64,000 nt of DNA from Terana coerulea (taxonomy: Eukaryota > Basidiomycota > Agaricomycetes > Polyporales > Phanerochaetaceae). The stretch covers positions 1 through 64,000 of the forward strand of contig JAKOGH010000571.1 in assembly GCA_024811115.1 (NCBI GenBank). Direction: 5' to 3'. Of the stretch, positions 24,693 through 51,610 are shown in pieces. Position 1 is the stretch's first letter. The number at the start of each line of letters is the position of its first letter. Below the pieces are notes generated by a model. It worked only from the letters and a program-made list of their open reading frames with translations, did not search any database and was not told the origin of the DNA. The position numbers and the translations under genes are program-made.

Positions 24693-24934
24693 GAGGATCT
24701 ATGTAACGGCGCCAAATAAGGACAAGCAAGTGCGCATCAGCGCATCCCTCAGGCGTGAGCTGCGCGCCAAACAGTGACAAACATTCACCGCTGTCCAATC
24801 GTGTCCCTCGTTTCTCTGCACACTGAATACTGTTTATGACATACAGCGACGCACAACGATATTGGCACAAAATACATATTTGGTCGTTACATATTACAAG
24901 CATTGAGCGAAATGGTGAACGGGCCGCTTGTGAC

Positions 24935-26538
24935 TCACGGCTTCTGCGCCCGAATGTTGGGGTGCAGCCCGCCGAGCAGGATGCGCTCCATCTTGTCGGG
25001 CGAGATACTGCCCGGGCCTGCGTACGGCACCGTGTCGACCATGCTCTACACACACACCGCGCATCATCAGTACCACATATGGAGCAAAGCCGAGAGAAAA
25101 CGTACGCCGGTGTTGAGCTGTGTGAGCTTCTCGAGCGCCTCCTTCGCGCCCTGGTCGTTCCCGATCTGCACGAACTGGACGCCCATCCAGTTCGGGTGGT
25201 GCTTCTTCGCGCGGAACTCGGCCGAGATCTCGGTCAGCATCTTCCCGAGCTCCGTCGACGCGTCGTCCGCTGCGGCACGGTACGCAGATGTGTTAGCGAG
25301 TAGGCAGAGAAGGGGAGGGAGGGGGACGCACTGGGAACGCCGTCGGTGATGCAGATGAGGTCGAGCGGCTTGATCTGGTTGTAGCGCGGCGTGCCGACCG
25401 CGCCGTCCAGGATGGCGAGGAACGCGCGCATCCGCTCCGCGACGCGCTTGCCGGTGGGGGTACCCCCGTCGGGTGAGACCTTCGACATCGCCGCCGCCAC
25501 CTTCAGCTTGTCCTACACCATCCTATCAGCACGCGCCTCTCGCGATCGAAAGGATGTACAACGCACCTGCACGCCCTTGATCTCGTCCCTGGAAGACAAA
25601 CTTGTTGTCCGAGTTGAGGAAGAACAGGTCGATGCCGTCCGCGTCATAATCAATCGCGGTGCCGCTAATACCCACCAACGCATTGTTGAGCTCCGTCCAC
25701 TTGTTATTCTCCTTCATGCTGCCCGAGTCGTCGATGAGGAACGCGGTGTCGTAGTACTTGAGGTAGTTGTCGATCGTGCTCGGCCGCGGCTGGTCCAGCA
25801 CGTCGTTATAGCCCGGGTTCGTATCGGCCGGCGGCGGCGGCGGGATCTCGTTCGGGTTCGTCTTGATGAGGTACACCGTCGCGACGAGGTCGTCGTACTG
25901 TCCTGACCCGGCAACTTGCTGCCCGTCGGGCGTGTCTTCGACGAAGATCTATCCAAACGTCACGTTAGAGGGGCAAAGCGACAGCGAGGCAGACGGGTGC
26001 GCACGAAGTAAGTGTAGTAGTCCGGAATGTCCGGCGAAGATCCCGGTGGCTTCGTGCTCTGTCCCCCTGTCAGCCCTCCTCTCACTACCATGAACGTGCG
26101 GCACAGAGCATACCTCGACGACCTGCGCCTTCGCGCTCGCACACCGCTCGACCTTGAGCTTCGCGCCGCTCGTCGCCTGGTCCTCAGAGTAGAAGAACGC
26201 GAGCTTCAGCTCGATCGCCGCGTTCTGCTGCTTGATGGGGAACGTGAGCGACTTGGAGCGCAGGTCCTTCATCGTGTCGTTCGCGACGCCCCACTGCGAC
26301 GCGAAGTTGCCCGTGAGGCCGCGGATGGAGGGCGTGACCGTCATCAGCTGGTTGTACGACTTGCGCGAGATCTACGTGCAGCGTCGTGAGTACGTGAGAA
26401 CGAAGCACACTCGTAGGCCAGTAAGCGGCGGAGCGGGCGGGTGCGACGTACGGCAGACACGGTGGTGAACCATTCGGGCGGGATGGTGATCGTCACCTTC
26501 GCGTTCGGCTCGGTCGTGAACTTTGGTCTGCCCGCCAT
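24935..26538 (-). CDS. Novel module + von Willebrand factor A domain, left copy
   Basis: Exons are 26538-26452, 26371-26114, 26058-26005, 25948-25567, 25512-25332, 25269-25106 and 25045-24935, about 411 residues. Residues 1-150 are the shared module: VTITIPPEWFTTVSA, RKPYNQL, LAFFYSEDQATSGAKL, then VEDTPD.. and a YDDLV block. A PPPPP linker follows, then a vWFA domain with a MIDAS DDSGSM at about 206 and ITDG later. vWFA domains are known for metal-dependent protein binding; the module is unknown to me. No signal peptide. Exon 4 is 382 nt, one more than its sister: an extra C near 25591 shifts the frame before the end of that exon. It ends AQKP. Confidence 0.75.
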
Positions 26539-27343
26539 GGTCGTCGTTGCTGAGAGTGTCGTTTGCGGCGGGGCGAAGTGAGTGTCGGAGAAAGGGAGTG
26601 CGTCAGAACGTGGTCGTGCAGGGTGGGTATGATATCACCTCATGTTTTGCAGGGTCTCGGCGGCATCAGAGTGCCGATAGTGTCTTCCAAGTCGACGTTG
26701 CAGACCTCCATTGCTGCTGCCAGAAGTGATTTTTGCATTTCTGCGCTCTCTTCCCCGTGTTCACCATGCAGTACTTGGAGTCGAGACTCGCTAGACTAAC
26801 TCTAGACCAGACCACTCTAGTGGAAAACAGTCAGTTATCCGAACATTCTTACCATCACATGTATCGCATCTGCATACAGTATGTCGCTCGTTACAACCTG
26901 CGAAGTGGTGCAGCCATTTGTGTACTGGCGCGCGCCATTTCCGATGTCAGGGATCTTTAGCGGCCGCATTGCACGCCGAGGCGAGCGGACGCGTGCATGC
27001 CATCTGCAAATGCGGGGAATTAGTGATAAAGCAGTCGAGGGTACAGGCGCAGATCGACGGAAGGTACCTCGGGTTACGTACGACAGTAAATGGAAGCAGG
27101 TCTGTTTGGCACAGACCGTGCAAGCCTTCGATTCCAGCGGCTTGAGTCAACGCCCGAGGGGATTCTTTGCAGTCGAATTTTGGTTGAGTTCGTCGAATTT
27201 CTAGGATCCGCCTTTCAGAGTAATACCAGGCTAACATACGGCTGCGCGCATATTCAAGTCCAGATTCTACAATTACAGCATACAGTCACACAAGTACAAG
27301 CTCAGTGCTAGTTTCCTTCTTGAGAAGATGAACGAACCCGACA
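26539..27343. other. Intergenic, conserved between duplication arms
   Basis: No gene. Between the vWFA gene and the stand-alone gene, about 230 bp (27000-27230) align closely with 36560-36800 in the other arm, including a GTACGTA-rich stretch. It presumably holds the vWFA promoter. Confidence 0.5.
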
Positions 27344-27981
27344 CTACCTCAGGAGTGCAAGCGTAGGTCGATTGGACGTAAAAATAAGAAATAAAAACAC
27401 GCACGCGTCGTCGTAAGATCCAGAGGTCGTGCCCGTCGTGCTCGTGTCCTCGACAAACACAAACAGCGTCATCGTGTCCGCGCCGTCGAAACTCCCAGGT
27501 GTCTTCTCTGCCTGCACAACCATCAGCTCCCTGTATCCTTTTGTCTCTTGCGCAGGGTGCGTACCTTGACTACATGAATGCGGTTCGCCGCCTTGTTTCC
27601 ATCGACGAGCGCGTCGCCGTCGGCCACACGCTGCGCGGGCGCGGCGAGGCACGCAACCTCGACGTCCATCTCCTCGTCCTGCGGCACAATCGGGAGCGAG
27701 TTCTGCATGTTGAACGTGATCTGCATCTGCTCGTTCGCAGTGCCGGCGGGTGAGTAGAAGACGGCCTCGTTGCGGTCGCCGAGGTAGTCGAACGAGACGA
27801 GCATCCCCTGGTCGTATTTCTGTCGAGACAGCTGCGGTCGTTGGCATTAATATGAGCTAGAGGGAGATAAAGCTTGAAGGTGGGCGGGACCTACCGATGT
27901 GATCATGGCGAACCACCCTGGAGGCAGCTTGAACGAGAACTTGTTCCCGACGGGCGTCGTGTATGTGGGCCTGGTCGCCAT
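27344..27981 (-). CDS. Stand-alone copy of the novel module, left
   Basis: Exons are 27981-27895, 27819-27565 and 27511-27344, giving 169 residues. It starts MATRPTYTTPVGNKFSFKLP, then PPGWFAMITS at the end of exon 1. Exon 2 contains KYDQGMLVSFDYLGDRNEAV, ANEQMQITFNM and MDVEVACLA. Exon 3 starts AEKTPGSFDGADTMTLFVFV, then EDTS.. and GSYDDACV. This is the same layout (W-F after an I/L-P-P strand, VED block, YDD block) as the N-terminal module of the vWFA and amine oxidase proteins, with nothing behind it. First intron after codon 29 in phase 0, as in the relatives. No signal peptide. Function unknown. Confidence 0.75.
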
Positions 27982-28310
27982 GGCTGGTGGTCCCGAGTCG
28001 CAAGAGGTTGGCAGAGTGCAAGTGAGAAGAGAGCCCTGAGTAAGCGAGGCGCAGAGTCTTCAACTTAGCCAAGTCAGTAGATGGAGAAACGCTTCACGTC
28101 TGCGACTGCTTGACCCCAACTCGTGACGGCGATATGAGAATCCGCACGAAGACCTCACCCCCGTTTTCCGCTTCCATACTGGCCGTCGAGATGCAGGCGT
28201 AATGCACCCTGCACGTACAGTGTGAAATGAGGGTAGAGACACCCGCCCGCGACTGGAGGAATGCACGCGAGTGATGGTGGTTCAAGACGTGTCGAGACCC
28301 CGAGAACCCC

Positions 28311-29140
28311 TATCGGTAATTGGGCTCGGGATGTGCCGATCAAAGCGAAGAGGCCAGCGTCTAAGTATGGTTCCCTCAAACTTTGTTCTCGACGTCGACG
28401 TCGCTTGCATCTCGCTGTGAGCTTTGCTTGATCCCGCGCAAGTCCTGTTCCTGAGACACGTTTGTCGTCAGCTGTATCACGCACATGGACCTTCCGTCTG
28501 CGAGAGGCATATAGTCGCAGAAGTGACACGTCTGCATGCCTCTCACGGAGCGAAGAGTTCACTGCAGCTGGTGAGGATCTACATGTTACGTTCTCAGTAT
28601 TATTCGTCATCGGAGCGGAACAGCACGCAGCTGAAGCTGATTCAATCCACAGGAAGCAATTCGCTTACGCCACAAAGGTAGTTGACGTCACACGACAGCG
28701 CTTGTCACGCGTGGGACTTTGACAGTGACAGTACCAACATCCCGTACGCCAGGTCGCTCCTCCTGGTATGCATGCAACCATATCCGTCACCAGCTCCGGG
28801 CTCCCCGCTTCGGCCACGCGGCCACCCTCGGAGCTAGAGTATCGCCCGCGCGGACATGGTTCCCTCTCGTCGGCCGCCCCGCACACCCGCAGGAGGGAAT
28901 AGACCCGCCAAACGTCGCGCACAGAAGGCAATAGAATATACGCGCATCTGTCGTCGTCGCCCCGCTCTTTTGCGTCATCCGCGTAGCCATAAACGGAAAC
29001 TCCGGCTTGTTGCTGTCGGCCGTGCCTGCTCGCCGTCGTCGTTTTCTCCCGCCCTTCATGCATCAGCGAAATCATTTGCGCTATGAACAGCAGTCGTACG
29101 AGAGGGAGCACGCAGCCCTTGGCATGCTGCACACCATGGC
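28311..29140. other. No recognised gene
   Basis: Between the inverted-duplication arm and the P450 promoter. Long open frames on both strands here show no family features and are probably chance frames in GC-rich DNA. Confidence 0.4.
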
Positions 29141-29147
29141 ATATAAG
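29141..29147 (+). promoter_or_regulatory. TATA box of the P450 gene
   Basis: ATATAAG lies about 94 bp before the ATG at 29235. Confidence 0.5.
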
Positions 29148-29234
29148 ACCCCTGCGCGCCGTGCCCAACCACCGACATACCGTCACCGACGTTCCCAAGC
29201 CTGTCCCCACCGCCGTACCCACCGTTGTATCCTC

Positions 29235-31023
29235 ATGGCCCCCACCGTCGTCTCGCATCTTGGCTTCACCTGCAACCAAGCCTTCGAATGGCTGTGCGGC
29301 ATCTCCTTCATCTCGAAGGCCGTGCTCTTCGTCGGGCTGGTAGCTGCGATCACGCACTACCAGCTCTCCTGCCCCCGCGCACTGCGCCACCTCAAACGCG
29401 TCTCACCGTACGCGACGCTCTGGAGCTATGCTGTGCGCGAGAGCGTCGACCAGCGCGTGCGCCGCCTCATCCTGCCACTCGCGGAGCAGGGCGAAGGCGC
29501 AGTCGCGGTGTACATGCTCGGGAAGTGGGGTGTGCATCTGGTTGACCCGTCGGTACGCGACACGGCATGGTTCACGCCTTACAGATGTCCTGACAAACTT
29601 GGTTTTTGAAGTTGATTCGGCAGGTGTGCATGGACACAACGCGCTTCCCGAAGAAAAACTACCAGGAGCACCTCCACTTCACGTTCCTCAGCGGCCCGAA
29701 CGTCGTCTTTCTCGAACGGAGAACAGTGGAAGCGCCACTCCGCGTCGGTCAAGGCCGCGTTCGACCGCGATATCCCTATTCACGTCTTCACCGAGCTCGC
29801 GCAGGAGGTCTTCCAAAAATCGGGACGGGTGGGGTCAAACCCTGGACGGAGCTCATGCAGGTACGCCGCCCTCGCACCAAGAGACACTGCGTTGTGAGCA
29901 CTGACGAGGAGGGCCTGTAGTGCTTCACGCTCGACGTCGTCGGCAGAGCCGCGCTCGGCCACGACTTCGCGGCGCTCTCCGCCAGCGCCGCCGCGTCGAA
30001 CGAGCCGCCGTTCGTCGAGCACTTCAACCGCGTCATGGCCTCCATCGCGACGCCCGCGCGCCTCATGTTCCCCGCGCTGGACGCGCTCTTCCCGCGTCGC
30101 GAGGTGATGGCGGACCTGGACGCGCTGAACGCGCGGTACGACCGCCTGCTGACGGAGAAGCGCGGCAAGCCGGGGAGGGATATCTTGAGCTATTTGTTGG
30201 AGGACGCGAGCTTGAGCCATGAGGAGCTGCGGAGCAACCTGAGCATTCTGTTCAGCGCGGGACACGTACGCCTTCGCTCCATCATTCTCGCCTATACCTT
30301 TCATGCTGACACACAAGCGTGCAGGACACCACCTCCGGCGCGCTCTCCACCGCCGTCTACCACCTCGCCGTCGACCCCGCCCTCCAATCCAAGCTCCGCG
30401 CCGAGGTCCGCGCCGCCCTGCCTCCCGGCACCGACCCGACGCTCGCGCACCTGAAGGCGCTCCCGCTGCTCGACGCCGTCGTGCGGGAGGCGCTGCGCAT
30501 CAACTCGCCCATCTCCCTGCTTCCCGCCCGAGTCTGCTACGAGGACGCCGTGCTCGCTACGACTGCGAGGGACGGGACGCAGAGGACGTATGCGGTGCCG
30601 GCGGGCACGCCGATCGTGCCGAACGTGTACGCCGTGCACCACCACCGCGCGTACTACCCGCGCGAGGCCGCGTTCTTGCCCGAACGCTTCCTCGCATCTC
30701 CAGTCGATGCGGAGGACAGCGCGGTGAGGGTGCAGCCGGGGACGTACCTCCCGTTCGGCACCGGTCCGCGGCAGTGCACCGCGCGCCAGTTCTCGCTCTT
30801 CGAGCAGAAGACGCTGCTCGCACTGTTGCTCCTCCGGTACGAGTTCGCGCTGCCCGCAGGGAGCGAGCATGCGAGAGGGCTGAAGAATGAGTTTGGCGCG
30901 TTCGGGCTGAGCATCCCGCACGAGCTTGATATCGAATTCACTTCGCTGAGTGGATGGAGGAAGGGGATTGAAGAAGGAGAGAGTAGATACCCTAGAACGA
31001 TGTCGATACCCAAGTGTCTTTGA
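29235..31023 (+). CDS. Cytochrome P450 monooxygenase
   Basis: Exons are 29235-29552, 29624-29860, 29921-30265 and 30325-31023, giving 532 residues. The N-terminus has a hydrophobic membrane anchor (SKAVLFVGLVAAITHYQL). The I-helix AGHDTTSGA spans the third intron, ExxR is EALR at about 350, and the heme loop is FGTGPRQC at about 444-451. It would be an ER-bound monooxygenase needing a CPR partner; substrate unknown. Exon 2 has a +1 (extra T, about 29713) and a -1 (missing A, about 29815) that cancel. Between them the conserved SNGEQWKRHSASVKAAF is read only in the shifted frame. It lies inside the inverted duplication; a fragment of a second copy is at 34953-35050. Confidence 0.85.
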
Positions 31024-31531
31024 TATCTTGACATGTTGTGGTGTATGTGTCTTTTCCGCGGTGTGCTGTAAATCAACCACGTGTCAATGTCATCTCATCT
31101 GTGCGCTGTGCTTATGGTGTTCGGCGCGAACGGTACAGATCGAGATGCGTGACGGGTGCCGGCATGCGATAGGTCAAGCTGGGGACTCGGACAATGTGCT
31201 TCGTTCGAGGAGCATGAGCTGACACCATGTGGCGAACATTGCTGCTTGTGAAGCTTGACCAAGTTTCGCGGCTCTCTTAGCCCAACTTGAATGCGCACCG
31301 CCCGTGTACCACGTCACGCACGTTAGACGTAGGGAACCTGCAACACTGTAGGCAATAATGCAGGGAGCTACTATAGACGAGAACATATCTTACTTCAACT
31401 ATCACTTGGGAACAAGCGCAAAAACAAAGTTGAAAGACCTGCACCAAAGCGTATGACATTCAAACTTGTCTCGCACTAAACTAATATACATTTGCGTCAT
31501 ACACAGTCCACTCGTTCAAACAACGACGCGT
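31024..31531. other. Intergenic between convergent genes
   Basis: The P450 (plus) and amine oxidase (minus) end towards each other across about 508 bp. No gene or clear terminator structure is seen. Confidence 0.5.
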
Positions 31532-34253
31532 TCAGGGCCCGACGGTGCCCGCGTTCGTCTTGGGCATGCTGCGCCCGAGGTTGACGACCGCCGCGAGCGT
31601 CTCGTTGTCGAACTCCTCGGACTTGCCCCACATGTTCTGGAACTTGGCGACGATGTCCTCGTTCTTGTTCGGGTTGAGCTCCGGGTGCGCGATGAGCATG
31701 CCCATCACCGCGCGCCACGCCGCGTTCAGCGCGCCCGCGACCCACCTACATCATTCAATTGGCGTGAACACCCACACAGCCACGACGAAAGGGAAAAAGG
31801 AGGACGCACCCGTGGAACGAGCTCGTCGCGTCGCCCGCAAAGTGCAGCCGCTGCTTGCTGCCGGCCGGCTGCTGCACGTACGGGTACGCGTACTTGAACT
31901 GCCCGGGCCCGAACTGGCAGAACGCGCCGAGCTGGAAGCTGTCCCTGCAGAAGTCCCACGGGTAGTAGTCCTCGAAGTTGTCCCACAGCAGCTGCACGTC
32001 CACGGCGTGCAGCTGCGCGAGGCTGCGCATGATGAGGTCGAGCAGCGCGCGCTCCTCGGGCGTGTCGCGCCCGTGCATGAGCCCGCCGAGCCGCTGCGCG
32101 TCCTGCATGCCGTTGTAGGACGCTATCATGCAGTTCGACTTCTGGTACGTCTTGCCCGGCACCGGGTGCGAGTCGTCCGGGCCGTACCTATCCAACGCGT
32201 CCGTGAGCGGCGTGCGCAAGAAAGATGAAACGAAAGACGTACGAGGGGTACACGACGTCCCGGATGGGTAGGTCCGTGCTCGACTGCCCGCCGACGATGC
32301 CGAGGTCCTCCCACCACGGCTTCTTGAACTGGATGCCGACCTTGACGCTCGGCGTGTACATCAGGTCGCGGATCGCGTTCTTCTGGCCGTAGTTCAGCCC
32401 CGCGTTCTTGAGGTCGACCATGCGCAGGCACGCGAAGCTCATCGTGCTGATCACGTTGCTGTACTTCTTCGTCGTCACGACCTGTGCGTTCGGGTTTGGG
32501 CTGCGGCGGCCGTCGAAAGTGACCGTCACGCTGTTCCCGCCGTCCGACTCCTCGATGATGGTCGCGCGCTGGTAAAGCACCGGCTTGGAGCTGAGGCGCT
32601 GCGTCATCGCCCGGTGCACGATCTCGGAGCCTTGGCTGTGGTGGTAGACTAGTCAATACACATTATATGCAAAGGAAGACGAATTCCTACTCGAGACAGA
32701 ACCAGTCGATGGTCTGGTTCTCGAACTTCGGATCGTTGAACACGAGGCTCGCGAGTACAGTCTCCGTCAGCGCCTCGTCCATGAGACCCGTACGGCTCTC
32801 CGCCGTCTCAAACCAATCGATCACGTCGCTAGGGTATCCCTTCACCTGGCTCAAGTAAGCCGACACGCTGTATCCGTCGAACTTCATCAGCTCCTTGTAC
32901 GCATCGACGAACGGCTTGTTCTTGAAATTATCGCGGAACTCCTTGAGCGCCTCGTCCCACATCGCGCTCGAGCCCTTCGCGACGTACTCCGCGGGCACGT
33001 TCCCACCCTTGGCCTGCGACACGCGGAAGACGTCGTCCGCCTTGGGCGTCTTGTCGTTCACGGCGCGCGTGACGGTGATGTCGTTGTAGCAGAAGAACGC
33101 GTTGTCGTTCTTGCGCAGGTACGGGATGAACGCCTGCGGCATGCTGAGCCGGTTCTGCACGAGGTCGAACGTGCGCTTCATGAACGTCGTCTTCGGGTAG
33201 CGCATCGCGCCGACGTCTGCGTCGTCCCCGTCAGCAAGGCAGGTCCCATCAAGCAAACGAGGACATACCGTAGTACTGATACTTTCCCTGCTTCTTCGGG
33301 AAGTTGTGTGTATACAGCCGGCCCCCGATGCGCTCGCTGCCCTCCATGATCTCGTACTTGATTCCGAGGCTGTCGAGCATCATGCCGATGTACAGGCCGC
33401 TAACCCCTGCGCCGATGATGCCGACGGGGAGGGCCGCGAGCTCAGGCGTGGGCGTGTACGGCGGTGGTGGCGAGGGGTACGGCTCGCCGGGGCGAATGTA
33501 GCGGTCGAGGAAGTCCTGGATGGCCTGCTTGCCCTGCTCGGTGAGCGCGGCGGTGCCCGTGTCCACCGGCGGCTCGACGGTAACCTCGAGTCCGTAGACC
33601 ATGTGAATTGTCAACACGAGGTCATCGTACTCGGGCTGCCCTGCGACTTGGGCAGAGTCGGGACCGTCCTCTACGAAGAGCTAGATGTACCACTCAGTAT
33701 ATGCGGGCAGCTAGTACGGAGGTTCGCTTACGAGGATAGTCATGTAATCTGGCATCTCCTCGGGCGCATCTTCCGGCTTGTTTGACTGCAAAAACAGGTC
33801 AGTTAGCGAATAAGCAGTACTGATGGCAGGCGGAGGCGTACAATGAAAGTGCGGAACTTGTTGCTCCTGCACTTCGAGTCTTCGAGCTTTCTACCCGAGG
33901 TGGCCCTCGTCTCCGAGTAGTAGAAACCAAACTTCATACCAGATATGTCGTCGTCCTGGGGAACGAAGGTGATTTGGCTACCCGCAGTGTCGACGTCGTA
34001 CATCGCCTGGTTGGGCGACTGCCATTTGTTGGCGAGGTACCTGACCTCAGTGTCGCCGAAGAACGGATATTCGACGACAACGAGCTGGTTGTAGGTCTTT
34101 CTTGTCACCTAACAAGCGCAAGATCAGCAACACTCAAGGCCTCGTCAAGGCTGGGTGACGCACTGCCGAGATGGTGGCAAACCATCCTTTGGGAATGTCG
34201 AGGGTGACTTGGTTGTCTTTGGCCGCGCCGAGTTTGGGGCGAGAGGGAGCCAT
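31532..34253 (-). CDS. Novel module + FAD amine oxidase
   Basis: Exons are 34253-34164, 34108-33842, 33785-33732, 33680-33269, 33216-32691, 32635-32243, 32187-31810 and 31745-31532, giving 777 residues with no lesion. Residues 1-165 are the shared module: VTLDIPKGWFATISA, RKTYNQLV, FGFYYSETRATSGRKL, DAPEEMPDYMTIL, then LFVEDGPDSAQ and YDDLVLTI. A proline linker (PYPSPPPPYTPTPE) precedes the FAD Rossmann segment VGIIGAGVSGLYIG at about 222 and GSERIGGRLYTH. The C-terminus has LHFAGDATSSFHGW. This fold oxidises amines or L-amino acids and releases H2O2 and ammonia; the true substrate is unknown. There is no signal peptide and no peroxisomal tail, so it is probably cytosolic. Confidence 0.88.
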
Positions 34254-34880
34254 GGCGCTGAGAATGTCTTCGACGGCGACGAGGAGAGGAGGAAGACGGG
34301 CGGTGTGGTTATGTACTGACTATAGGCCTGTCGGCGTGGTAAAGGCCAAGATTTATATTCACCGAGCTCGCAAACATACATAAGTAATCCTCTCGATGCA
34401 TGGCGGCTCGCTTCGGTTGTATGGGGTTACTGTCAACGATTAGATTAGAAGGACAAAGTTAATGACTGGCGGGACCCTGGACACTCCTCACCGGGCGTTC
34501 ATGTGTCCCAAATGTGCGGCATAGGTCATGGCCCGACCACTGCGACAGGCTGAATGTTCGGAAGCCGTTCTTGTTCACGTCATTCAAAACGAGGGCTGGC
34601 GAGGCATGTGTAGGGTCTGAAATCAATGAAATAAGACCGATGACATCGGGAGAGCGAAAGCCAGCCTACCACGTCACTTACATAAAGAAATTCGTGCCAG
34701 CTACCGAGTTCTGCACAGAGCCGGATCGAGCACCTGACCAATTACACTGGCGACTGAGCTTTGCATCTGGTGAACTATAGTAGCAAACGCTTGACGAGCG
34801 ATAACACGCAGGGAGTCTAAAGCGGTGGACATGATGGTGCGAAAGAACGTGGTGAGTCGTGACTCATCGTAACGACGTTC
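34254..34880. other. Amine oxidase promoter and unassigned sequence
   Basis: Contains the minus-strand TATA box (34351-34358). A minus-strand frame starting at 34833 downstream of the F-box promoter motif encodes only 43 residues (MSTALDSLRVIARQ..) and is not recognisable as an F-box. Confidence 0.4.
34351..34358 (-). promoter_or_regulatory. TATA box of the amine oxidase gene
   Basis: ATATAAAT on the minus strand about 100 bp before the ATG at 34253. Confidence 0.5.
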
Positions 34881-34886
34881 GCGCTT

Positions 34887-34910
34887 GTCACATATCACGT
34901 GATGGGTGAC
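34887..34910 (-). promoter_or_regulatory. Displaced F-box-type promoter motif
   Basis: On the minus strand it is GTCACCCATCACGTGATATGTGAC without gaps. It shares CACGTGATATGTGAC with the motif before the F-box gene starting at 13298. Here it stands next to a P450 fragment and no F-box coding region follows, so it looks transplanted. Confidence 0.45.
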
Positions 34911-34952
34911 AGTGGTCACGATGGACGCGATGTGAAGAGATCCCGAGCAAAA

Positions 34953-35050
34953 TCCGAAGACCACACTTGGGCCGCTGAGGAACGCGTACTGAATGTACTC
35001 CTGGCAATTCATCTTTCTTCGGGAAACGCGTCGGATCCGTCCATAATGCA
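34953..35050 (-). pseudogene. P450 exon fragment
   Basis: On the minus strand the pieces RFPKK, NCQEYIQYAFLSGPSVVF align with the start of exon 2 of the P450 at 29624 (RFPKKNYQEHLHFTFLSGPN). A frame break follows RFPKK. The homology stops at the conserved VVF and continues into the F-box-type promoter sequence. Its orientation is the mirror of the intact P450, so it fits the inverted duplication. Confidence 0.65.
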
Positions 35051-35779
35051 TGGGAAATGATCTGACATTTACGCGCTTGTCACTGTCAGTTTCCCTGCAG
35101 AATTAGGTGCGTCTCGGGTCTATATTCTCCTGCGAGATGCGAGGCGGGCAAAGAGATGGCAGTAGATCCACATAGGCTACACTCTAGCTCCGAGGGTAGT
35201 CAGTTGGCTGTCGCTAGGACTTTGAGGTCGGGTGCCAGATATGGTCCTGGCGTACATAAGTATGGAGCAATCAAATCTTGAACATTGGAGCTCGTGAGCT
35301 TGGAGATAGAACAACGAGGTCCCCGGCGAAGGTAAAGCACCGGCGTCCTCGAAATACTGGAACGTCGAGGAGGAGCAAGCAACGAGCGCCGAATGCTACT
35401 TTGGTTAGACGCTCAGTTCCCCCTCTGAACGGCAGATGCCGGACCTGTTCACAAGTATTTTTGGGGTCCGACACATCATGTATCATGAACTGTGCATTCC
35501 TCCGGTCGTGGCGAGCTGTCCGTACCCTCATCTCACATCACACGCGCAGGGGAGCTTCACATCTGCATTTCTACTGCCAGCATGGAAGCAAGAAACAAGG
35601 GGTGGTCCTCGTGCGGGCCCAGTTCTGACTCGCCGGAACTTGAATGAAATGAGGTTCAAGCGAACACGGACGTGAAGCGTCACGGTTTCTCCATTTACTG
35701 ACTTGGCCTTGGGACTCTGCGCGTCGTTTTGCCCTTCTCTCTCTACTCGATACACTTCGACCACTCGCGACCACGAGCC

Positions 35780-36489
35780 ATGGCGACCAGACCCACATAC
35801 ACGACGCCCGTTGGGAACAAGTTCTCCTTCAAGCTGCCTCCGGGGTGGTTCGCCATGATCACATCCGTAAGCACCCTCCGCCTTCCTCCACTTACTCATG
35901 CTAACGACGGCGACGACAATGAACAAAGCTTTCTCGCCAGAAGTACGACCAGGGCATGCTCGTCTCGTTCGACTACCTCGGCGACCGCAACGAGGCCGTC
36001 TTCTACTCGCCCGCCAACACCGCGAACGAGCAGATGCAGATCACGTTCAACATGCAGAACTCGCTCCCGATCGTGCCGCAGGACGAGGAGATGGACGTCG
36101 AGGTTGCGTGCCTCGCCGCGCCCGCGCAGCGCGTGCCCACCGGCGACGCGCTCGTCGACGGGAACATGGCTGCCAACCGCATTCATGTAGTCAAGGTGCG
36201 TAGGGCGCATGCGCAGGAGATAACGAGGGCTAGGAACTGATGGATTGTGCAGGCTGAGAAGACACCTGGGAGTTTCGACGGCGCGGATACGATGACGCTG
36301 TTTGTGTTCGTCGAGGACACGAGCACGACGGGTATGACCTCTGGCTCGTACGACGACGCGTGCGTTCTCTATTTCTCTCTCCTGCGCCGACGCGGCCTAC
36401 ACTTACACTCCGAGGCAGTGTCGGATTCGTCCATCTCCTCAAGAAAGGAAATTAGCGCTGAGCTTTTCCTGCGTGACTGTGTGCTGTAA
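35780..36489 (+). CDS. Stand-alone copy of the novel module, right
   Basis: Exons are 35780-35866, 35941-36195 and 36253-36489, giving 192 residues. Exons 1 and 2 have the same lengths (87, 255) as the left copy and nearly the same protein (MATRPTYTTPVGNKFSFKLP; ANEQMQITFNM; GSYDDACV). After YDDACV the frame differs. A single-base difference near 36412, where the left copy has its stop, lets this copy run on for about 23 unrelated codons. The 169-residue form is probably ancestral. No signal peptide, function unknown. Confidence 0.72.
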
Positions 36490-37187
36490 TTGTAGGATCC
36501 GGACTCGAATACGTGCTCATCATGTTAGCCAATTATTTCTCTGAAACGAAAATCCTGAAAGTTCGAGGCATTGAACTTCAAAGAACACCCTCGGGCGTTC
36601 AAGTACTCAAGCCGCCAGAGCCGAAGGCTTGCACGGTCGCTTCCAACAGGCCTGCATCCATTTACGTCGTACGTACGTAAACCGAGGTATCCGACACCGA
36701 TCTGTGCCTGTCTCCCCAATCATTGATTCCCCGCATTCACAGATGACATGCACGCGTCCGACGCGTCCGCTTGTCTCGGCGTACAACGCGGCCGCGGCTC
36801 GAAGATGTTTTGGCGTCAGGAATGTCGCGCGGCGCTATACAATTGGCCATACCCCCTCGTGGGATGTAACAATAAACATACGTCAAGCCCCAGAATGTAC
36901 GTACGTGTGAAGGTCGGAATGTTCAGATAATAAATGGCGATGAGCTAAAGTGTGCTGGTTTCCAGACTTGGTCTGGTGAGCCTGAGGCCTGGACTCCACA
37001 ACATAACGGGCACATGGAAGCGATGCAGAACCGGCTTGGAAGACACAGTCGGCACTCTGATAGCTCCGAGACTCTGCAGAACATGAGGTGATATCATACT
37101 CACCCTGTGCGACCACGTTCCGACACACTCGCTTTCTCCAATACTTACTTCCACCCGCAGTAGACGACGCTCTCAGCAACGACGACC
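36490..37187. other. Intergenic, conserved between duplication arms
   Basis: No gene. It aligns with 26539-27343 on the opposite strand and contains CGTACGTACGTAAAC at about 36666. It presumably holds the promoter of the vWFA gene. Confidence 0.5.
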
Positions 37188-38771
37188 ATGGCAGGCAGAC
37201 CAAAGTTCACGACCGAGCCGAACGCGAAGGTGACGATCACCATCCCGCCCGAGTGGTTCACCACCGTGTCCGCCGTACGTCGCGCCCGCCCTCTTCCCCC
37301 CCGCTTTCCGGTCTACACTTTACGCTGACCGCGCTGCGCGCAGATCTCGCGCAAGCCGTACAACCAGCTGATGACGATCACGCCCTCCATCCGCGGCCTC
37401 ACGGGCAACTTCGCGTCGCAGTGGGGCGTCGCGAACGACGCGATGAAGGACCTGCGCGCCAAGTCGCTCACGTTCCCGATCAAGCAGCAGAACGCGGCGG
37501 TCGAGCTGAAGCTCGCGTTCTTTTACTCCGCGGACCAGGCGACGAGCGGCGCGAAGCTCAAGGTCGAGCGGTGTGCGAGCGCGAAGGCGCAGGTCGTCGA
37601 GGTATGCTCTGTGTCGTACGTTCACGCTGATGAGAGAAAGGCTAACAGGGGGACAGAGCACGAAGCCGCCGGGATCTTCGCCCGACATTCCGGACTACTA
37701 CACTTACTTCGTGCGTATCCGTCTCTCTGACTGTAGTTCCGCATTTCCAACACGACGTTCGGCTAGATCTTCGTTGAAGACACACCCGACGCGCAGCAAA
37801 TCTCCGGGTCAGGACAGTACGACGACCTCGTCGCGACGGTGTACCTCATCAAGACGAACCCGAACGAGATCCCGCCGCCGCCGCCGGCCGATACGAATCC
37901 GGGCTATAACGACGTGCTGGACCAGCCGCGGCCGAGCACGATCGACAACTACCTCAAGTACTACGACACCGCGTTCCTCATTGACGACTCGGGCAGCATG
38001 AAGGAGAATAACAAGTGGACGGAGCTGAACAATGCATTGATTGGTATTAGTGGCACTGCGATTGATTATGACGCGGACGGTATCGACTTGTTTTTCCTCA
38101 ACTCGGACAACAAGTTTGTCTTCAGGGATGAGATCAAGGGTGTACAGGTGCGTTGTTTGTTGGCGTCGTAGCGAGAGGGTGTATACTGATATAATGGTGT
38201 AGGATAAGCCGAAGGTTGCGGCGGCGATGTCGAAGGTCTCGCCTGTCGGTGGGACCCCTACCGGCAAGCGCGTCGCGGAGCGCATGCGCGCGTTCCTCGC
38301 CGTCCTAGACGGTGCCGTCGGCACCCGCGCTACAACCAAATCAAGCCGCTCGACCTCATTTGCATCACCGACGGCGTCCCCAGTGCGTCTTCCTTCACCG
38401 CTCTCCCCTCTTCGTCTGTTTACTGACTGTGTTGCAGCGGACGACGCGTCGACGGAGCTGGGGAAGATGTTGACTGAGATCTCGGCGGAGTTCCGCGCGA
38501 AGAAGCATCACCCGAACTGGATGGGCATCCAGTTCGTGCAGATCGGGGACGACCAGGGCGCGAAGGAGGCGCTGGAGAAGCTCACGCAGCTCAACACCGG
38601 CGTACGTCCCCTTCTCTCGTTGAGGTTGTGCTGTGCGCTGATCTCTGGGGGTGTAAACAGAGCATGGTCGACACGGTGCCGTACGCAGGGCCGGGCAGCA
38701 TCTCGCCGGACAAGATGGAGCGCATCCTGCTTGGTGGGCTGCACCCCAACATTCGTGCGCAGAAGCCGTGA
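37188..38771 (+). CDS. Novel module + von Willebrand factor A domain, right copy
   Basis: Exons are 37188-37274, 37344-37601, 37657-37710, 37767-38147, 38203-38382, 38438-38601 and 38661-38771, about 411 residues. Same plan as the left copy: module (VTITIPPEWFTTVSA; RKPYNQL; LAFFYSADQATSGAKL; IFVEDTPDAQQ; YDDLVATVYLI), PPPPP linker, then vWFA with MIDAS DDSGSM at about 206, GTPTGKRVAERM and ITDG. Exon 5 is 180 nt, one short of its sister, because a base is missing near 38323 (before PRYNQIKPLDLICITDG), which shifts the frame. The lesion of the left copy is at a different place, so each copy is broken once where the other is sound. Confidence 0.75.
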
Positions 38772-38945
38772 GCGGCCTGTTCCCCATCGTACTCCTCGCT
38801 GTTTGTACTCTGTAATGATAGTCGATAGAAACTGTATTTGTGTCAGTAGCCTTGTGCGACATCGTGTGTCGTGGATAGTCAGTGCTAGGATGACGGAAGA
38901 GACATGATTGGACAGCGGTGAATGTTTGCGTCACTGTTTGGGCAT

Positions 38946-40850
38946 AGACTCGTTACCAGCCCGCAGGTAGCTCTTAAGAACGTACTTTGAGGTACGTTAT
39001 TCTTAATAGCGACCAGCGGGACTGGCAGAACTCGGTCGAGTGCGCGCACACGAGAATTTAAACCCCGCAGATTTCCCAAAGAGGCAGGTCGCCACGTGCG
39101 CACCAGAACCCGTCACGGTGGACGTCGCTGGGAGTTATTGTAACAGCAACGGAATGCTGTGGAGGAACAGACTGGGCATAAAAAGACTGAGACGAAGCTG
39201 AGAGAAGATGCAGCAGAGCAGGAGGTAGTCACCAGGCTCAGGAGCGAGCTGGCCAGTACCACTAGTGTCTGCGAAGAAACTTACACCCTCAACAGCTTCC
39301 CCTGCCAGTGCCTGGGTCTTTCGCAGATGAAAACCCCTCGTGTTCCTTCAGAGATTATTGTTATTCTCGATTGCTACGGCCTCTGCCCCTTTGTGGCTAT
39401 GCAAGCCATCACGCTGCCACTGGACAAGCCGCACATCAGGAAAGGGGTTTCAATTACATAGTTGATGTTGTCTATGGTACGTACTCGGAGTTATCCATTG
39501 AAAGAAAAAGATATGATAGGCTAGTAGAGCCTATGATGCTCTACAGTACATGATCCGCTCTACTACAGTCTCTGAGAACCGGCGAGTAGATGCCTTCTTC
39601 TCGAGGAGCTTCCAGTTGGCTGACTAAGTTCTATTAGAGTTTATGTGAGCCTATGCGAGAAGCCATTCGCTCTGGCATTCTATACCCGAGCATGCACGGA
39701 GCTGAAGCTCTGCGCCTGCACCTAAAATTGTACGTACCTCGGTCCTTTTCTATCGCCCCTTCACTAACGGCGTGACCTGAGCGCCCGAGAGACCGATTCC
39801 GGGTCTTCACGCGCGACGTACAAAAGACGTGCTGTCTGCCATCGCCTCTGAAGTCCGCATCTCACCTGCATACACCACAGTAAGTCCCAGATTTTACATG
39901 TATTGCTACTACTATCAGCAACACTCACGAGTCACTGACTACACTGGAGCAGCTATGCATGGACAGCAATGTCCAGTGGCCCACAATGCTGCCAATACTC
40001 CAGCAGTGGTGGCTTTCTGGACTGCTAGTGAGTCCTTGTGTTGCTGCGAACAAGGACCGCCCCCAGCACTCACTCTTCTCTACAGGCTCGGGACTTCAGG
40101 GTTTCGTATGTGCAGCTGTGTGTGTATGTAAATATTATCTTCTTCGCAAGAATTTGCAACTGACCTCTGATTCACGAAGCCCGAGACCTTGGCCTCGAGT
40201 ATTGGTACTGGTAGCGTAACGGACTCGGACCACAGTAGATACTCATCCCTGTTCTGTACTGCGGTTCGCCGCTATTTGCAATGTAATTCATGTGTAAATA
40301 GACATCCCAGAATTATGTAATCAATAAGTCACTCTCCCCCAATCCGGCATTTTGATTCACGCGCCGTGTAGCTGCTGTTCATAGTGAGTCATAGCAAAGG
40401 CACGATAGCCCCTGTTACAACCCATAGCCAAAACCTGGGTATGTAGTACAATATATGTCGAGGGAAGTCAATGGGGCTATCATTGCTATATGCCCTATCT
40501 AACACAATATAAACTAAAACCTCTTTCGTGATGCAAAGGGTGCATATTTGAGGAGTTTGCATGCTTTCACACTAATTTCGGCAGTACTGACTTCACCGAG
40601 GTGCTGAGTAGTATACCTAGTCATCCCAGACGGTTTTCTAAGCATGTTAGAATACAAATAAAACTCATTGCTCAGTAAACAGCGCAGGCATGTTACGGCG
40701 GAGTGCACGTGTGCGCTACGACCACCTTCCTCTTTGAGAAATCTGCGGGGTTTCAATTCTCGTCTGCGCGCTCTCGGTTCAGTGCTCCCAGCCGCCTTGC
40801 AAAGTATTATATTGTTATGATACGTGCAAGGTGGCTGGTTCGAGCCTAGT
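38946..40850. mobile_element. TIR DNA element, copy 2 (1905 bp), with target duplication
   Basis: The ends match copy 1 (1119-1900). It is flanked by a direct repeat TTGGGCAT (38938-38945 and 40851-40858; two further bases, GT before it, also match). An 8-bp duplication would suit the hAT superfamily. The outer 500 bp on the left and 300 bp on the right align with copy 1. The middle, about 39460-40530, is extra sequence with no recognisable transposase. It is non-autonomous or heavily decayed. Confidence 0.75.
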
Positions 40851-40858
40851 TTGGGCAT

Positions 40859-41934
40859 GTTTTCCGAAGTTTGGGCGCTTAGTTCAATTCTTTGTCACAC
40901 GCGTGCACGGCTCGCCCTCCTTTGTCTCCACCACCATCTCCAGGTCCTCCAGCTGGTGCGCAAAGTGCGGGCGTCCAGGAACATCGTCGCTGTCAGGACC
41001 GCAGTGCTCTTGTGCGAGGCATGCTGTACAAGGGAAGTGGACCTTATGTATTCCCCGCCCTATATCGGAATGGTAAATGCATGAGATCCACGTCTCTTCG
41101 ACCGAGGTTACGCGAGGACATGGCAATGGGTGCACGGTGATGCCATCGACGGTGTGTCTTGAAGCTGATACATGGAAGCGAGCCAATGTACGTGGTGCGC
41201 ACTCTCCCGACTCCACCCGAACATGGCACTCACAGCGGTTTTGTTCAGATTAATGGCGTTATGTGCATCCTTGCGAGGCTGCACGCAATCACAAGGTATT
41301 AGGCGGCAGATGACACCCTCCGATGTCAGCGCATGTTCCTCTCGTTCCGGAGCCTCATTTATCGTCCAGCGTTGTTCGGGTCCTGGAAGAAGGGTGCGAA
41401 AGGAACGGTGAGTTGCAAGGTACCCTCAGCGTCTCCGGGGATGGCAATCGTGTCGATGATTTCAGCTGGCCGCTTGAAGAAAAACGAGAGGAGAAGAGGG
41501 TCCCGGCGGAGCTTCGTGGCAGGTGTAATGCACGCCGGCGTGCAGCAGCGTGGCTTATGACACGTAACTCTGCAAGCTGCGTTCGGTGACATAATGTATC
41601 CAGTATGGAAAGCCGGCTGCTCATCTCAACGACAAGGTCGCGGCTTTGGCGGCGGTGATCGGACGCGTGATGTCTACACTCAAGAATCCGCAGCGGCTTT
41701 GTCGGGCGAGAAGTCGGTGAGTTGGGCGTTTATTCCACGCGTGCTTCTATACGCTCCTGCTCATCGGTATCACAGTAGATATATACGCCAGGATGCAGAT
41801 ACGTTCATCTGCGCAAAGTCTCTCCCCCCGCACGAGCGCATTCTCAACGTCCCGCAGCCACTACTCTACCGTCGTCGTCCAAAGCCACTATATTTGAACG
41901 CTGAGTTTCATCAGCTTTAGTTGATAGACACACA
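40859..41934. other. Unassigned stretch upstream of the peroxidase gene
   Basis: Several frames of 60-110 codons on both strands (for example a minus-strand frame with IIDTIAIPGDAEGTLQLTVP near 41400-41480) show no family I can name. A TATA-like TATATTT at about 41888 may serve the gene starting at 41935. Confidence 0.35.
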
Positions 41935-44900
41935 ATGTCGTACGTCCATACATTCTCCATTTTGTGTTGTCGCTGCTCAATAATGGAGACCACTCGCCGT
42001 GTTCGTCGCATAGATACCCTCCTCCTCCCCCAGGACGCGGTCCTCCTGGCGGACCCCCTCCACCCGGCGGGCCTCCTCCGGGCTGGGGTCCCCGCCCGGT
42101 GGTATGGGCGGTCCGCCGCCGGGTCCTCCACCTCCAGGATGGGGTCCCCGCCCGGCGGTATGGGCGGCCCGCCCCAGGTCCTCCACCTCCCGGATGGGGT
42201 CCCCGCCAGGCGGCATGGGCGGGCCACCTCCGGGTCCGCCGCCAGGTGGTATGGGCGGGCCACCTCCAGGTCCTCCGCCAGGTGGCATGGGTGGTCCGCC
42301 TCCAGGTCCTCCACCAGGCGGTATGGGCGGTCCGCCTCCAGGTCCTCCACCAGGCGGTATGGGCGGTCCGCCCCCAGGTCCTCCGCCAGGCGGTATGGGC
42401 GGTCCGCCTGGCCCGCCTCCCTCCGAGTTGGGGTCCTCCGCCTCAGTCTGGCGGAGGGAGCAATAACAGCGGTAACAACGGTGGAAACAATGGCAACAAT
42501 AGTAGCAACAACAACGGGACGAAGCCGACGGATGGAAGCGGCGACCCAAAGCCTTCTGGCAAGTATTCACGCTGCTTGCTACGGTATGTGGAAGCTGATC
42601 GTGCTACGCAGATGGCAGCGGTGGGACGAAGCCGTCGGATGGCGGCGCAGGTACCAAACCATTGGATGGCAGTAGTGGGACCAAGCCTTCAGGTGACTTT
42701 CCCACCGCCCCGCTTTTCTGCGCTATTCTGAACTGACTTGTTTGTCTAAAGATGGCAGTGGCGGGATCAAGCCGTCGGATGGCAGCGGCGGAACCAAACC
42801 CTCAGACGGTACGAAGCCTTCAGATGGGAGTGGAGGCAGCAAGCCCTCCAGTGGAAACAGTACAACTAAACCGTACCGTGAGCCATCCTTGTGTGCTCCT
42901 CCTCGATGGCTGTGCTCAATTCCGTTTCATAGCGTGCGGAGACGTCAGCGCATCCGGGTACATGTTCAACATCCCCGCTGGCTGGCAGACCACGATCACG
43001 AGCGTATGTTTGATCGTCACTTTCGCTCCTCGCGCCTCCTGACATGCCCATGCGTAGGCTTCCAACCAAACGTACAACCAGGGCGTGTGCAGCGACTACG
43101 TCCGCGATGGGCGGCGCGTCCGGAACATGCTCGCGAACCAATGGGGCCATAGCGCGGGAGACATGCACAACACGCGAGACGGCGAGACGGCGATTAAGAT
43201 GCAGGAGTTTGAGGAGAGCACGGTGCTGACGTTCAAGTGGTATGCGTCCCAGACGCAAACGCAGGCCAAGGAGAAGCTCATCCAGGCAGAGGCGTATGCG
43301 AGCAGCATCTCGGTGACGAAGGTATGTGATTCTTTAATTCGCAAGCGTTCGTGCTCACAAAGAGCGTGTAGGTTAGCGAGACGGCGGATGAAATTGTCTA
43401 TGAGGTGCGTTGCTTGTTCCACTAACCAAATTACGTGCTGTTATTAACTGTCGTTTTTGCAGATAAAGGTTTTCGACAAGGCTGGAAATACGTCTCCCGA
43501 CCAGTGAGTGTCTCTCTACTTATCCGAGCGCTCTGCTTAGTTGTGCAAAGAATTACGACAGTGCGCTTTACCCGTGTAGCTAACAGTGACCCGCTGGGCC
43601 TTAGTAACATCCAAGGTGATGTCATGTACGCTCATACGTTAGCCTTGTTAGAATCCCTCTGACACGAGAGTACACAGCCCGGGGCTTCCCAAGGCCCTTG
43701 AATACTTCTACTATTTCCAAGTCACAGACGTCACCCGCTTCCGCCAGGCGTTCACCTCGTTTGCCTTGCCGAAAATCATCACCTCGGAACAGCTTGTGAA
43801 CAATCCACCGCCCCCAGCGCAGACGAACCCCGACCATCCCTTCGTCGGCTTCAACGTCGCGTTCACCAGCCTCGGCATCCAGCTCTTCGGGCTCGACCCG
43901 GCGCAGATCGGCGACGCGGCCTTCGTGCGCGGCCAGATGGCGGACGCGCAGTCGCTCGGCGACCCCGGCGCGGCGCGCGGCGAGAGCTGGTCGCCGCACT
44001 GGGACGCGGAGTACAAGGCGAACATCGACGGCCTCTTCCTCGTCACGGCGTACAACGAGGCGAACGCGCAGGCGTTCATCACGCAGCTCGAGGCCGCGTT
44101 CGCGTGGGCACCACAGCGGTCGAGCATCCGCAAGGTGCTCGCGCTGCACGGGTTCCCGCGGCCGGGCGCGCAGGGCCCGAACGACCACTTCGGGTACCGC
44201 GGCGGCGGAATCACGAACCCGCAGGTGAAGGGTGTGACGTTCACGGACGAGAAGCCGATGCGCTTTACGGGCACCGTTGTTATCCCGATCGGCGTGCTCG
44301 TGATGGGGCGCGAGGGCGACGACGACGCAGCGCGCCGCCCGGCGTGGGCGGTCGACGGGAGCCTGATTGCGACGCGGAAGCTGAACAACCTCGTGCCGGA
44401 GTTCGACCGGTACTGCCTCGCGGAGGGGCAGCGGCTGTTCAAGAACGTTGCCCCGGACCAGGCGGCGGCGAAGTTCGGCGCGAGGCTGATGGGGCGGTGG
44501 AAGAACGGTAAGGGCGGCTCGTACTATGCACAGTAAAGATGATACTAACGTCGCTATTGGCTTGAATCGTAGGTACGGCCGTCGCGATGTCCCCTGACAA
44601 TGACGCGCCAGAGATCGCGAAGGACGACTCGCGGGTGAACAACTTTGAGTTCGACCAGAGCGACACCGCGCAACGCACCTGCCCCTTCGCGGCGCACATG
44701 CGCAAGTCGAACCCGCGCAACGACGTCCCGCGTGAGGAGCAGATCAAGCATCTGTACGTATCCCTCCCTGCTGTACTATGCCTAGTCCTAACGCGAGCTG
44801 ATTTTTGCAGCCTGCGGCGCCACAACATGCCGTACGGCCCTGAAGTCTCAGATGACGAACGCGCGAACGGGACAACCCAGGAGCGTGGGCTGCACATGTG

Positions 44901-45226
44901 TACGTACCAGAGCAGCATCGAGCGCGGCTTCCGGTATATCCAGCGTTGTACGTGCCCATTCTCCTTCACCTTCTCCTCATCGCTCACTTCGTCCTCGTAG
45001 CCTGGTACAATGAGCCCAAGTTCCCGCCCGGCAAGCCTGTCGAGCCCGGTTGGGATCCCTCTTTGGCCAGACGGGCACCGACGGCGTGCACCGCTACATG
45101 AGCGGCGTCGACCCGGGCAACCCGAGCGCGGTGACGACGTTCTTCGAGAAGTTCGTGGACCCGCGTGGTGGCGAGTACTTCTTCTCGCCGAGCATGAAGA
45201 CGCTGCGGGAGTATGTTGCGGTTTGA
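41935..45226 (+). CDS. Pro/Gly linker + KPSDG repeats + novel module + DyP peroxidase
   Basis: Exons are 41935-41939, 42014-42558, 42612-42692, 42752-42877, 42933-43003, 43058-43321, 43372-43404, 43463-43503, 43587-43625, 43678-44507, 44573-44753, 44811-44947 and 45001-45226. The start splices to MSYPPPPPGRGPPGG; GGMGGPPPGPPP repeats and KPSDGSGGT repeats follow. The module comes next: YMFNIPAGWQTTITS, QTYNQGV, LTFKWYASQTQTQAKEKL, IKVFDKAGNTSPD. Then a DyP domain: GLSNIQGDV, HFGYRGGGITNP, FGARLMGRWKNG, CPFAAHMRKSNPR with the heme His, MPYGPEVS, ERGLHMC. DyP enzymes are heme peroxidases using H2O2. The GxxDG Asp is Gly here. Several missing Cs (five sites in 42090-42440, one near 45058) break the frame. 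Confidence 0.75.
42209..42424 (+). repeat. 36-bp tandem repeat encoding GGMGGPPPGPPP
   Basis: About six copies of a 36-nt unit (GGNGGNATGGGCGGNCCNCC...), varying mainly at third positions. It codes for a low-complexity Pro/Gly/Met linker at the N-terminus of the peroxidase fusion. Confidence 0.85.
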
Positions 45227-46119: not shown

Positions 46120-47190
46120 GCTACACCCTACCGAAGCACCTTTCTTATCATAGCGCACAATGAGGTGCACGCTTAGGCAGTCGTCACGCAGGCTGCGGCC
46201 ACTTTTTCGCTGCGTTGGTCTTGGTCGAGGATCCGCAAGATGGACACGCTGCATGGGCACCTTTCTCGTAGCGCGAAGGGTCCGAACCGCCACTTCAGAT
46301 ACCGCGCTGGTGGGGAAACGCAACTACAGATTGAAGGCGATGCTCACCAACGCGAAGCCAATGCGATTCACGGGCACCGTTGTTCATTCGATTGCTGTGC
46401 TCATCATAAGGCGTCAGAGCGACAAGGGCGCAGAGCGCCGCGCGCTGTGGGCGACCGACGACGACCAAATTGTAATTTGCGAGCTGAACAGCTTCGTGAC
46501 CAACGCACCGTGGAGCTGCTGTTCAAGAGCCTTGCATCCGACAGGGCCACGGCGATGTTTGGCGCGAAGCTGACGACGTTTCAAAAGAGCGATAAGGGCT
46601 GCTCATGTCGTGGACAAAGAAAATTAAGCTGACTCTCATGCTCACTGTCTAATTTGTAGCCAGAGCCGTCGCGATCCCGCCTGACAGTGACACACCTGAG
46701 ATCACGAAGGTCGGCGCGCGAGCGAACAGTTGTGACTGTTGAATCCGCTGCCAGAACACGCATGCTCCTAAGTCTCAAATGATGAGCACACGAATGGGGC
46801 GGCGACGGCGGGCACATACCTGTGCGTACCAGAGTAGCATTCACTGAGGCTTCCGATTTATTCTACGCGGTACGCCGTCCTCCTTCATTACTATCTTTCT
46901 CTCCTCATCGCTCATAATATCTTCTCAGCCTTTTACAACGACACGAATTTCCCGTTCTGCAAACTTATCGACTCTAGCTGAGACACTACGTTTTGACTAC
47001 GTTGGCCAGATAACTTGAAGCGACAATAACGTGCACGCCAACGTGAGCGGCGTCGACTCAAGCAACCTGAGCAAAGTAACACCATTTTTTGAGAGGTTCG
47101 TGGACACCCATGGCGGCCACTACCTTCTCTCACCCAGCTTGAAGGAGTTTCAGGCTATGCACACGAATGTGGTGACTCCGAGTCATGAGC
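46120..47190 (+). pseudogene. Decayed DyP peroxidase copy
   Basis: Pieces align with the DyP gene: GPNRHFRYRAGG (matching GPNDHFGYRGGG), NAKPMRFTGTVV, ALWATDDDQIVICELNSFVTN, SDKGCSC, RYLLSPSLKEF-like tail near 47130. There are many shifts, stops and missing blocks, and the CPFAAH heme segment is barely recognisable. The module part and linker are absent. The GxxDG position reads Ala here. Confidence 0.7.
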
Positions 47191-51473: not shown

Positions 51474-51610
51474 ACTTCTAGTCCCATTGGGAAGATATTT
51501 GCGTACAGCCGACCCCAAATGCGCTCGCTGTGCTTCTGAATATAGTACTCAATCACGAGGTCAAGTCCTGGGGCACGCTCGGTCCGCGGATGGCTGACAG
51601 GAAGCAGCAG
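51474..51610 (-). pseudogene. Amine oxidase fragment
   Basis: Minus-strand YIQKHSERIWGRLYANIFP matches MEGSERIGGRLYTHNFPKKQ of the amine oxidase at 31532-34253 (end of the FAD-binding segment). The GxGxxG part before it is not recognisable. Confidence 0.55.

Follow-up and report, generated by a model that had tools for sequence, protein, structure and literature searches.

The calcium-mediated lectins of the LecB/PA-IIL family (PF07472), which form dimers or tetramers, and the sponge protein thrombocorticin are the closest described relatives, by predicted fold, of the domain analyzed here. Thrombocorticin is a dimer with swapped C-termini, in which calcium is held by N107, D115, D117, N119 and D120 together with the C-terminal carboxylate of the neighbouring subunit, and the addition of one residue at the C-terminus reportedly diminishes fucose binding (PMC9700728). 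The one report of fungal PA-IIL homologues that we found concerns Metarhizium and Hirsutella only (PMC10481521). Lectin-fold domains joined to effector domains are found in fungal chimerolectins, such as CCTX2 of Coprinopsis cinerea, with beta-trefoil domains and an effector domain other than those considered below (PMC13324453), and in the het-B HET-lectin-fold allorecognition proteins, where the lectin domain has the fruit-body-lectin fold (PMC10890737).

Here we examine a 64,000-nucleotide stretch of the Terana coerulea genome (the window; positions 1 to 64,000 of JAKOGH010000571.1, our contig C444 of the 48.4-Mb assembly), in which six neighbouring genes carry a common module, either without a partner or joined to a vWFA domain, a flavin adenine dinucleotide (FAD)-dependent L-amino-acid oxidase or a DyP-type domain. 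The module is predicted to adopt the LecB/PA-IIL (calcium-mediated lectin) fold, on an uncatalogued fungal branch. It resembles LecB/PA-IIL and thrombocorticin in the beta-sandwich fold, the length and the conserved acidic positions of the last loop, and differs from them by its fusion to enzymes and vWFA domains and at the database and ligand-site levels detailed below. The likeness to CCTX2 is one of architecture only, a lectin-fold part and an effector part in one chain of an Agaricomycete, the module here being a putative binder; het-B shares the combination of lectin-fold and effector domains, with the module differing in its LecB fold. We put at about an even chance the possibility that the module is a LecB-fold recognition domain, fused to oxidase, DyP-like or vWFA parts in a chimerolectin-type fungal defence.

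One module in six genes

The six positions given for the module in the original prediction proved correct: 27981, 26538 and 34253 on the reverse strand, 35780 and 37188 on the forward strand and, for the DyP fusion, 42933-43503 on the forward strand. They belong to two stand-alone genes (SA1, SA2), two vWFA fusions (VW1, VW2), an oxidase fusion (AO) and the DyP fusion. All six modules are present, but SA1 with VW1 and SA2 with VW2 are inverted duplicates of a single two-gene unit (24767-28301 versus 35463-38941, 80% DNA identity), so that there are four independent sequences rather than six. The module was also said to open all six genes; this does not seem to apply to the DyP fusion, in which, as we read the sequence, the module is apparently internal: a segment rich in P/G/M and a linker of G/S/T-K-P type come before it, so that it is probably not at the start of the predicted gene.

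The common origin of the modules, beyond chance, was confirmed by leaving out one architecture at a time, scoring it with a profile built from the remaining ones and comparing the result with shuffled sequences. The oxidase modules scored 112-140 bits (3 rows; best of 1500 shuffles, 10.1), the stand-alone modules 86-122 bits (4 rows; best of 2000, 10.4), the vWFA-fusion modules 38-148 bits (16 rows, including the incomplete P0014 and P0022; best of 8000, 12.3) and the DyP module 68 bits (1 row; best of 500, 5.9). As a control within the window, 20 of 766 open frames scored in the module search, and all 20 overlap the six modules. Furthermore, the vWFA, oxidase and DyP forms share the positions of three phase-0 introns, and the stand-alone form has the first two of these at matching positions.

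Relatives of the module, open and full-length in other fungi, were detected in Mycena, Lyophyllum, Leucoagaricus, Infundibulicybe, Tricholomella, Psilocybe and Collybia, along with one short 'Claviceps' contig. The best 120 of 328 matches were considered and 20 (P0003-P0022) taken as relatives, with 16 of these included in alignment A2, 14 in the leave-out profiles and column counts and 10 in the tree. The 'Claviceps' row (P0014), which may be a contaminant, was kept in the vWFA alignment, the profile test and the column counts; P0125 and P0126 were placed in one alignment that was not used further. The column counts cover 24 module rows, two pairs of which are near-copies. Neither of the motifs noted earlier, VED and YDD, is universal, but the aspartate of VED is present in 24 of 24 rows and the last aspartate of YDD in 23 of the 23 rows with a letter there. 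The DyP module has VFD in place of VED and lacks the YDDLV strand.

Predicted fold and sugar site

In Foldseek searches and in structural alignment with the model of the stand-alone protein P0123, the module matched the LecB/PA-IIL beta-sandwich. Taken by query length, the Foldseek TM-scores are moderate (0.44-0.56 for the LecB and thrombocorticin rows, 0.36-0.41 for the Burkholderia rows), and the module is only 8-20% identical in sequence to LecB-type chains. The earlier view that no named domain fits stands at the level of sequence, with nothing above cut-off in Pfam and nothing in NCBIfam for two stand-alone proteins, but not at the level of fold, which is a known one. Pfam, NCBIfam and PDB sequence searches returned no family for the module; every match fell short of the cut-off or had an E-value of at least 0.0092. 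PF07472 gave no match in 11 modules up to E 10, a search in which HMMER filters drop very weak matches, and none in a six-frame, exon-by-exon profile search of the genome; PF04261 likewise gave nothing in the latter, although DyP genes are detected there with PF21105 and with a protein query, so a blank result of this genome search is weak evidence. A viral structure library yielded no module match at E<=0.001, with an Orpheovirus DUF4114 protein as a weak lead (E 0.023, TM 0.49 by query length); VIA with the fused P0004 model gave vWFA-region rows only, the vWFA domain having filled the list. No relative came from a bacterial and archaeal scan with P0123 or a viral scan with P0004, scans that detect close relatives only.

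The structural alignment ends with residue 162 of the P0123 model on thrombocorticin residue 131, and an ungapped count back from the aligned ends places P0123 Q148, D150 and D151 on thrombocorticin D117, N119 and D120. The D120 equivalent, D151, is Asp in 23 of 23 rows with a letter; the D117 equivalent is Asp in one of 22 rows and absent in the other 21; and Asp occupies the D115 position in one of 16. Under this mapping, which takes the last loop as ungapped, the two-calcium ligand set listed above is not kept in the modules. D138 (24/24), Y35 (22/24) and Q37 (24/24) are conserved along with D151, in two stretches aligned to the sugar site of the family, which suggests that the pocket is perhaps still used. 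If the loop there is ungapped, an Arg that is conserved in 21 of the 23 rows with a letter falls at the place of thrombocorticin Q25, where the change Q25K abolished binding. In the fused forms the chain runs on into the linker and there is no free C-terminal carboxylate at the thrombocorticin place, 11 residues after the last Asp (D120 to G131); the stand-alone chains end 11 residues after the last Asp in P0123, 12 in P0124 and SA2 and 19 in SA1.

These features bear on whether the module could work in the manner of LecB, as a typical PA-IIL lectin that binds fucose or mannose with the help of calcium. The fold match, the resemblance of VED...YDD to the acidic loop of the family and the end of P0123 at the position of the family's C-terminal carboxylate would fit; however, the absence of PF07472 matches in the modules and the genome, the absence of the bridging Asp from 21 of 22 rows, the lack of a free C-terminus in the fused forms, given the effect of a single added residue in thrombocorticin, and the conserved Arg make this distinctly unlikely. 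As modelled, the fold is that of the LecB/PA-IIL family; the sugar site is not.

Partner domains

The oxidase domain of AO matches PF01593 (E 2.2e-34), contains what we take to be the N-terminal FAD motif and aligns over nearly full length with 'L-amino acid oxidase 4' (9enh, E 4e-88), its closest match of solved structure, features of an L-amino-acid oxidase; AO differs from such enzymes in that the match, residues 221-752, begins only at residue 221 of the fusion. Contigs C5 and C610 carry oxidase-like genes too, with no module in the 7 kb surrounding those of C5. In the vWFA partner, residues D206, S208, S210, T278 and D317 (P0004 numbering), presumably the metal-ion-dependent adhesion site (MIDAS; DxSxS, Thr, Asp), are invariant in 16 of 16 aligned relatives, and the window copies carry the DDSGSM motif; this partner thus appears to be an adhesion domain with an intact metal site.

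The DyP domain in the window matches 7anv (E 3.6e-77). The domain itself and, in alignment to solved DyPs, the distal Arg and proximal His motifs (GRWKNG and CPFAAH) are held in common with class D DyP-type peroxidases, from which the cluster copies differ by replacement of the GXXDG Asp: the window copy reads GYRGGG, and all five cluster copies that were read, of which two are alleles, have GYRGGG or GWRGGG. A DyP piece elsewhere (C231:2072-2685) also lacks the aspartate (GYRGGG); its contig is 38 kb long and gave no module match over the first 6 kb. The DyP of C24 keeps it (GFLDG), with no module within the 2.5 kb examined. In a class B enzyme, Arg rather than Asp is essential (cited in PMC8230527), so by analogy the fused aspartate-less DyP need not be inactive. 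The N-terminus of the DyP fusion is of low complexity and P/G/M-rich at 42000-42450, and a G/P-rich stretch likewise lies upstream of the module in the forward-strand DyP gene of contig C652.

A second cluster and the age of the fusions

Contig C874 is an allele of the window region (93-96%). A second cluster occupies 201.5-229 kb of C652, in the order DyP(-), vWFA(-), stand-alone(-), P450 stretch(+), oxidase(-), DyP(+), vWFA(+), with 68-74% DNA identity to the window in 11 of 12 matches; C372 is its allele (about 98%). In both clusters a cytochrome P450, conserved in DNA, stands between the stand-alone and oxidase genes. With five protein queries, module residues were found only on C444, C874, C652 and C372, among the best candidates scored. 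The four architectures and the second cluster bear out the expectation that a single module is combined with various partner domains and clustered more than once. Mycena amicta has both an oxidase fusion (P0001) and a stand-alone module (P0124). The reverse-strand vWFA gene of C652 has an apparent single-base frame break near 205.8 kb.

In a tree of 24 rows, from which the modules of the reverse-strand vWFA and DyP genes of C652 were omitted for lack of a clean reading, the stand-alone modules (5 rows, 98/98), the oxidase modules (4 rows, 99/98) and the DyP modules (2 rows, both from this genome, 100/100) are each split off from all other rows by a single branch. This does not apply to the 13 vWFA rows, for which 3 changes are needed. 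The module had been described as recombined with different effectors; read as ongoing shuffling this does not hold, because the grouping by architecture implies that the stand-alone, oxidase and DyP fusions are old and that these lines predate the cluster duplication. The oxidase modules of Mycena are closer to the one in the window than the second-cluster copy is (91/84), and the cluster duplication may predate the split from Mycena.

For the SA1/SA2 pair the ratio of non-synonymous to synonymous substitution rates (dN/dS) is 0.084, and for the VW modules it is 0.242; DyP gives 0.324 when compared between clusters and 0.083 when the two C652 copies are compared. These values speak for purifying selection. 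A value of 2.28 for a vWFA-fusion exon against a stand-alone exon was dropped as the sequences are too far apart. Relative to VW2, VW1 has one single-base frame break, near 25.59 kb; VW2 has one near 38.33 kb and the DyP gene one near 45.06 kb. These are either sequence errors or young lesions, and some may be errors since allele C874 reads through the VW2 break. Together with the broken DyP piece at 46.1-46.7 kb and the oxidase piece at 51.3-51.6 kb, the breaks might indicate decaying tandem duplicates in which the module has no shared function. We regard this as very unlikely in view of the low dN/dS, the grouping of same-architecture modules across species, the open full-length relatives and the intact C874 reading.

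Proposed function

In fungal fruiting bodies, cytoplasmic lectins have a role in defence (PMC3355094), and mushroom L-amino-acid oxidases kill bacteria via hydrogen peroxide (H2O2); some antibacterial oxidases are reported to bind surfaces, a property that could not be confirmed for two mushroom ones (PMC7248570). No hydrophobic leader was seen by eye at the five module starts that open genes. In the defence reading, the module is lectin-like, shows no evident signal peptide and would bind a surface ligand on non-self cells or debris, whether it stands by itself or serves as the binding part of a chimera. The oxidase would be a source of H2O2 and ammonia, with the fused recognition module supplying surface binding so that H2O2 is made at the target; the vWFA partners would bridge, and the DyP-like haem protein without the catalytic Asp would handle haem or peroxide. 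Several observations weigh against this reading: the moderate fold scores and low identity, the calcium ligands, most of which are not kept, as at the D115 and D117 positions, the missing last strand of the DyP module and the scatter of the vWFA rows in the tree. The role may also be vacuolar, nutritional or signalling instead.

The chief rival holds that the module is an assembly domain, modules pairing across proteins to bring oxidase, DyP-like protein and vWFA adhesin into one complex, with sugar binding lost. The canonical calcium and sugar ligands are mostly not kept, and, as the calcium site is lost, it may be the surface used in pairing that was retained instead of the sugar site; the four architectures occur together in two clusters; a partner could supply the strand missing from the DyP module; and the dimers or tetramers of LecB-type lectins and the swapped thrombocorticin dimer show pairing within this fold. 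The conservation of D138, D151, Y35 and Q37 at the aligned sugar site argues against assembly, which we consider possible, if rather doubtful. In a more specific version, which is unlikely, the four architectures would be plug-compatible subunits of a mixed complex: the oxidase would produce H2O2, the DyP without its aspartate would sense haem or peroxide and the vWFA protein would act as adhesin, and a strand from a partner, or a stand-alone subunit, would complete the DyP module. Common targeting or assembly, as originally proposed, fits the data, and the shared module may steer or gather its partner enzymes.

Gene models and neighbouring sequences

Gene models were spliced by hand with GT-AG introns. 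The P450 assignment includes a PF00067 match (E 5.5e-39) of the frame at 30319-31023.

Table 1. Features of the module cluster in the window
Feature	Position	Strand	Basis
SA1, stand-alone module, 172 residues, 4 exons	27286..27981	-	hand splicing; leave-one-out profile, 112 bits
VW1, module of vWFA fusion (copy 1), inner end approximate	25847..26538	-	intron places as in VW2
VW1, Pro-rich linker and vWFA domain	24935..25846	-	tblastn with P0003/P0004; sequence
Cytochrome P450 gene, between stand-alone and oxidase genes	29277..30940	+	DNA match to C652; PF00067
AO, module, Pro-rich linker and FAD L-amino-acid oxidase, 777 residues, 8 exons	31532..34253	-	
AO, module portion	34253 to about 33590	-	
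SA2, stand-alone module, 165 residues, SA1 copy	35780..36455	+	hand splicing; DNA match
VW2, module of vWFA fusion (copy 2), inner end approximate	37188..37868	+	hand splicing
VW2, Pro-rich linker and vWFA domain, DDSGSM motif	37869..38771	+	
Probable DyP gene start, P/G/M-rich repeats and G/S/T-K-P linker, tentative model	41935..42932	+	sequence reading
Module of DyP fusion, without last strand	42933..43503	+	
DyP-type domain	43590..45226	+	PF21105, E 2e-31; alignment to solved DyPs

A decayed second DyP piece with many stops lies at 46141-46728, with 66% DNA identity to part of the C874 allelic DyP, and a decayed piece of a second L-amino-acid oxidase gene at 51310-51559. On the reverse strand there are a 659-codon open frame with a weak F-box/leucine-rich-repeat-type match below the Pfam cut-off (22713-24692) and a DEAD/DEAH-box helicase-like frame, also matched below cut-off (59885-60535).

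Significance

A literature search, with most subscription papers outside its scope, gave no report of LecB-type domains in basidiomycetes or of lectin-oxidase fusions among the matches listed, and the words LecB, PA2L and calcium are absent, by term search, from the main text of one survey of fungal lectins (PMC8227253). The module as predicted adds to mushroom-forming fungi a LecB-fold domain family that is unlisted in the Pfam release searched and occurs in fusions for which we found no report. The loss of the catalytic aspartate in DyP copies that appear constrained is a second puzzle. If the module indeed aims an H2O2-producing oxidase at intruders, the fusion would be a targeted oxidative weapon.
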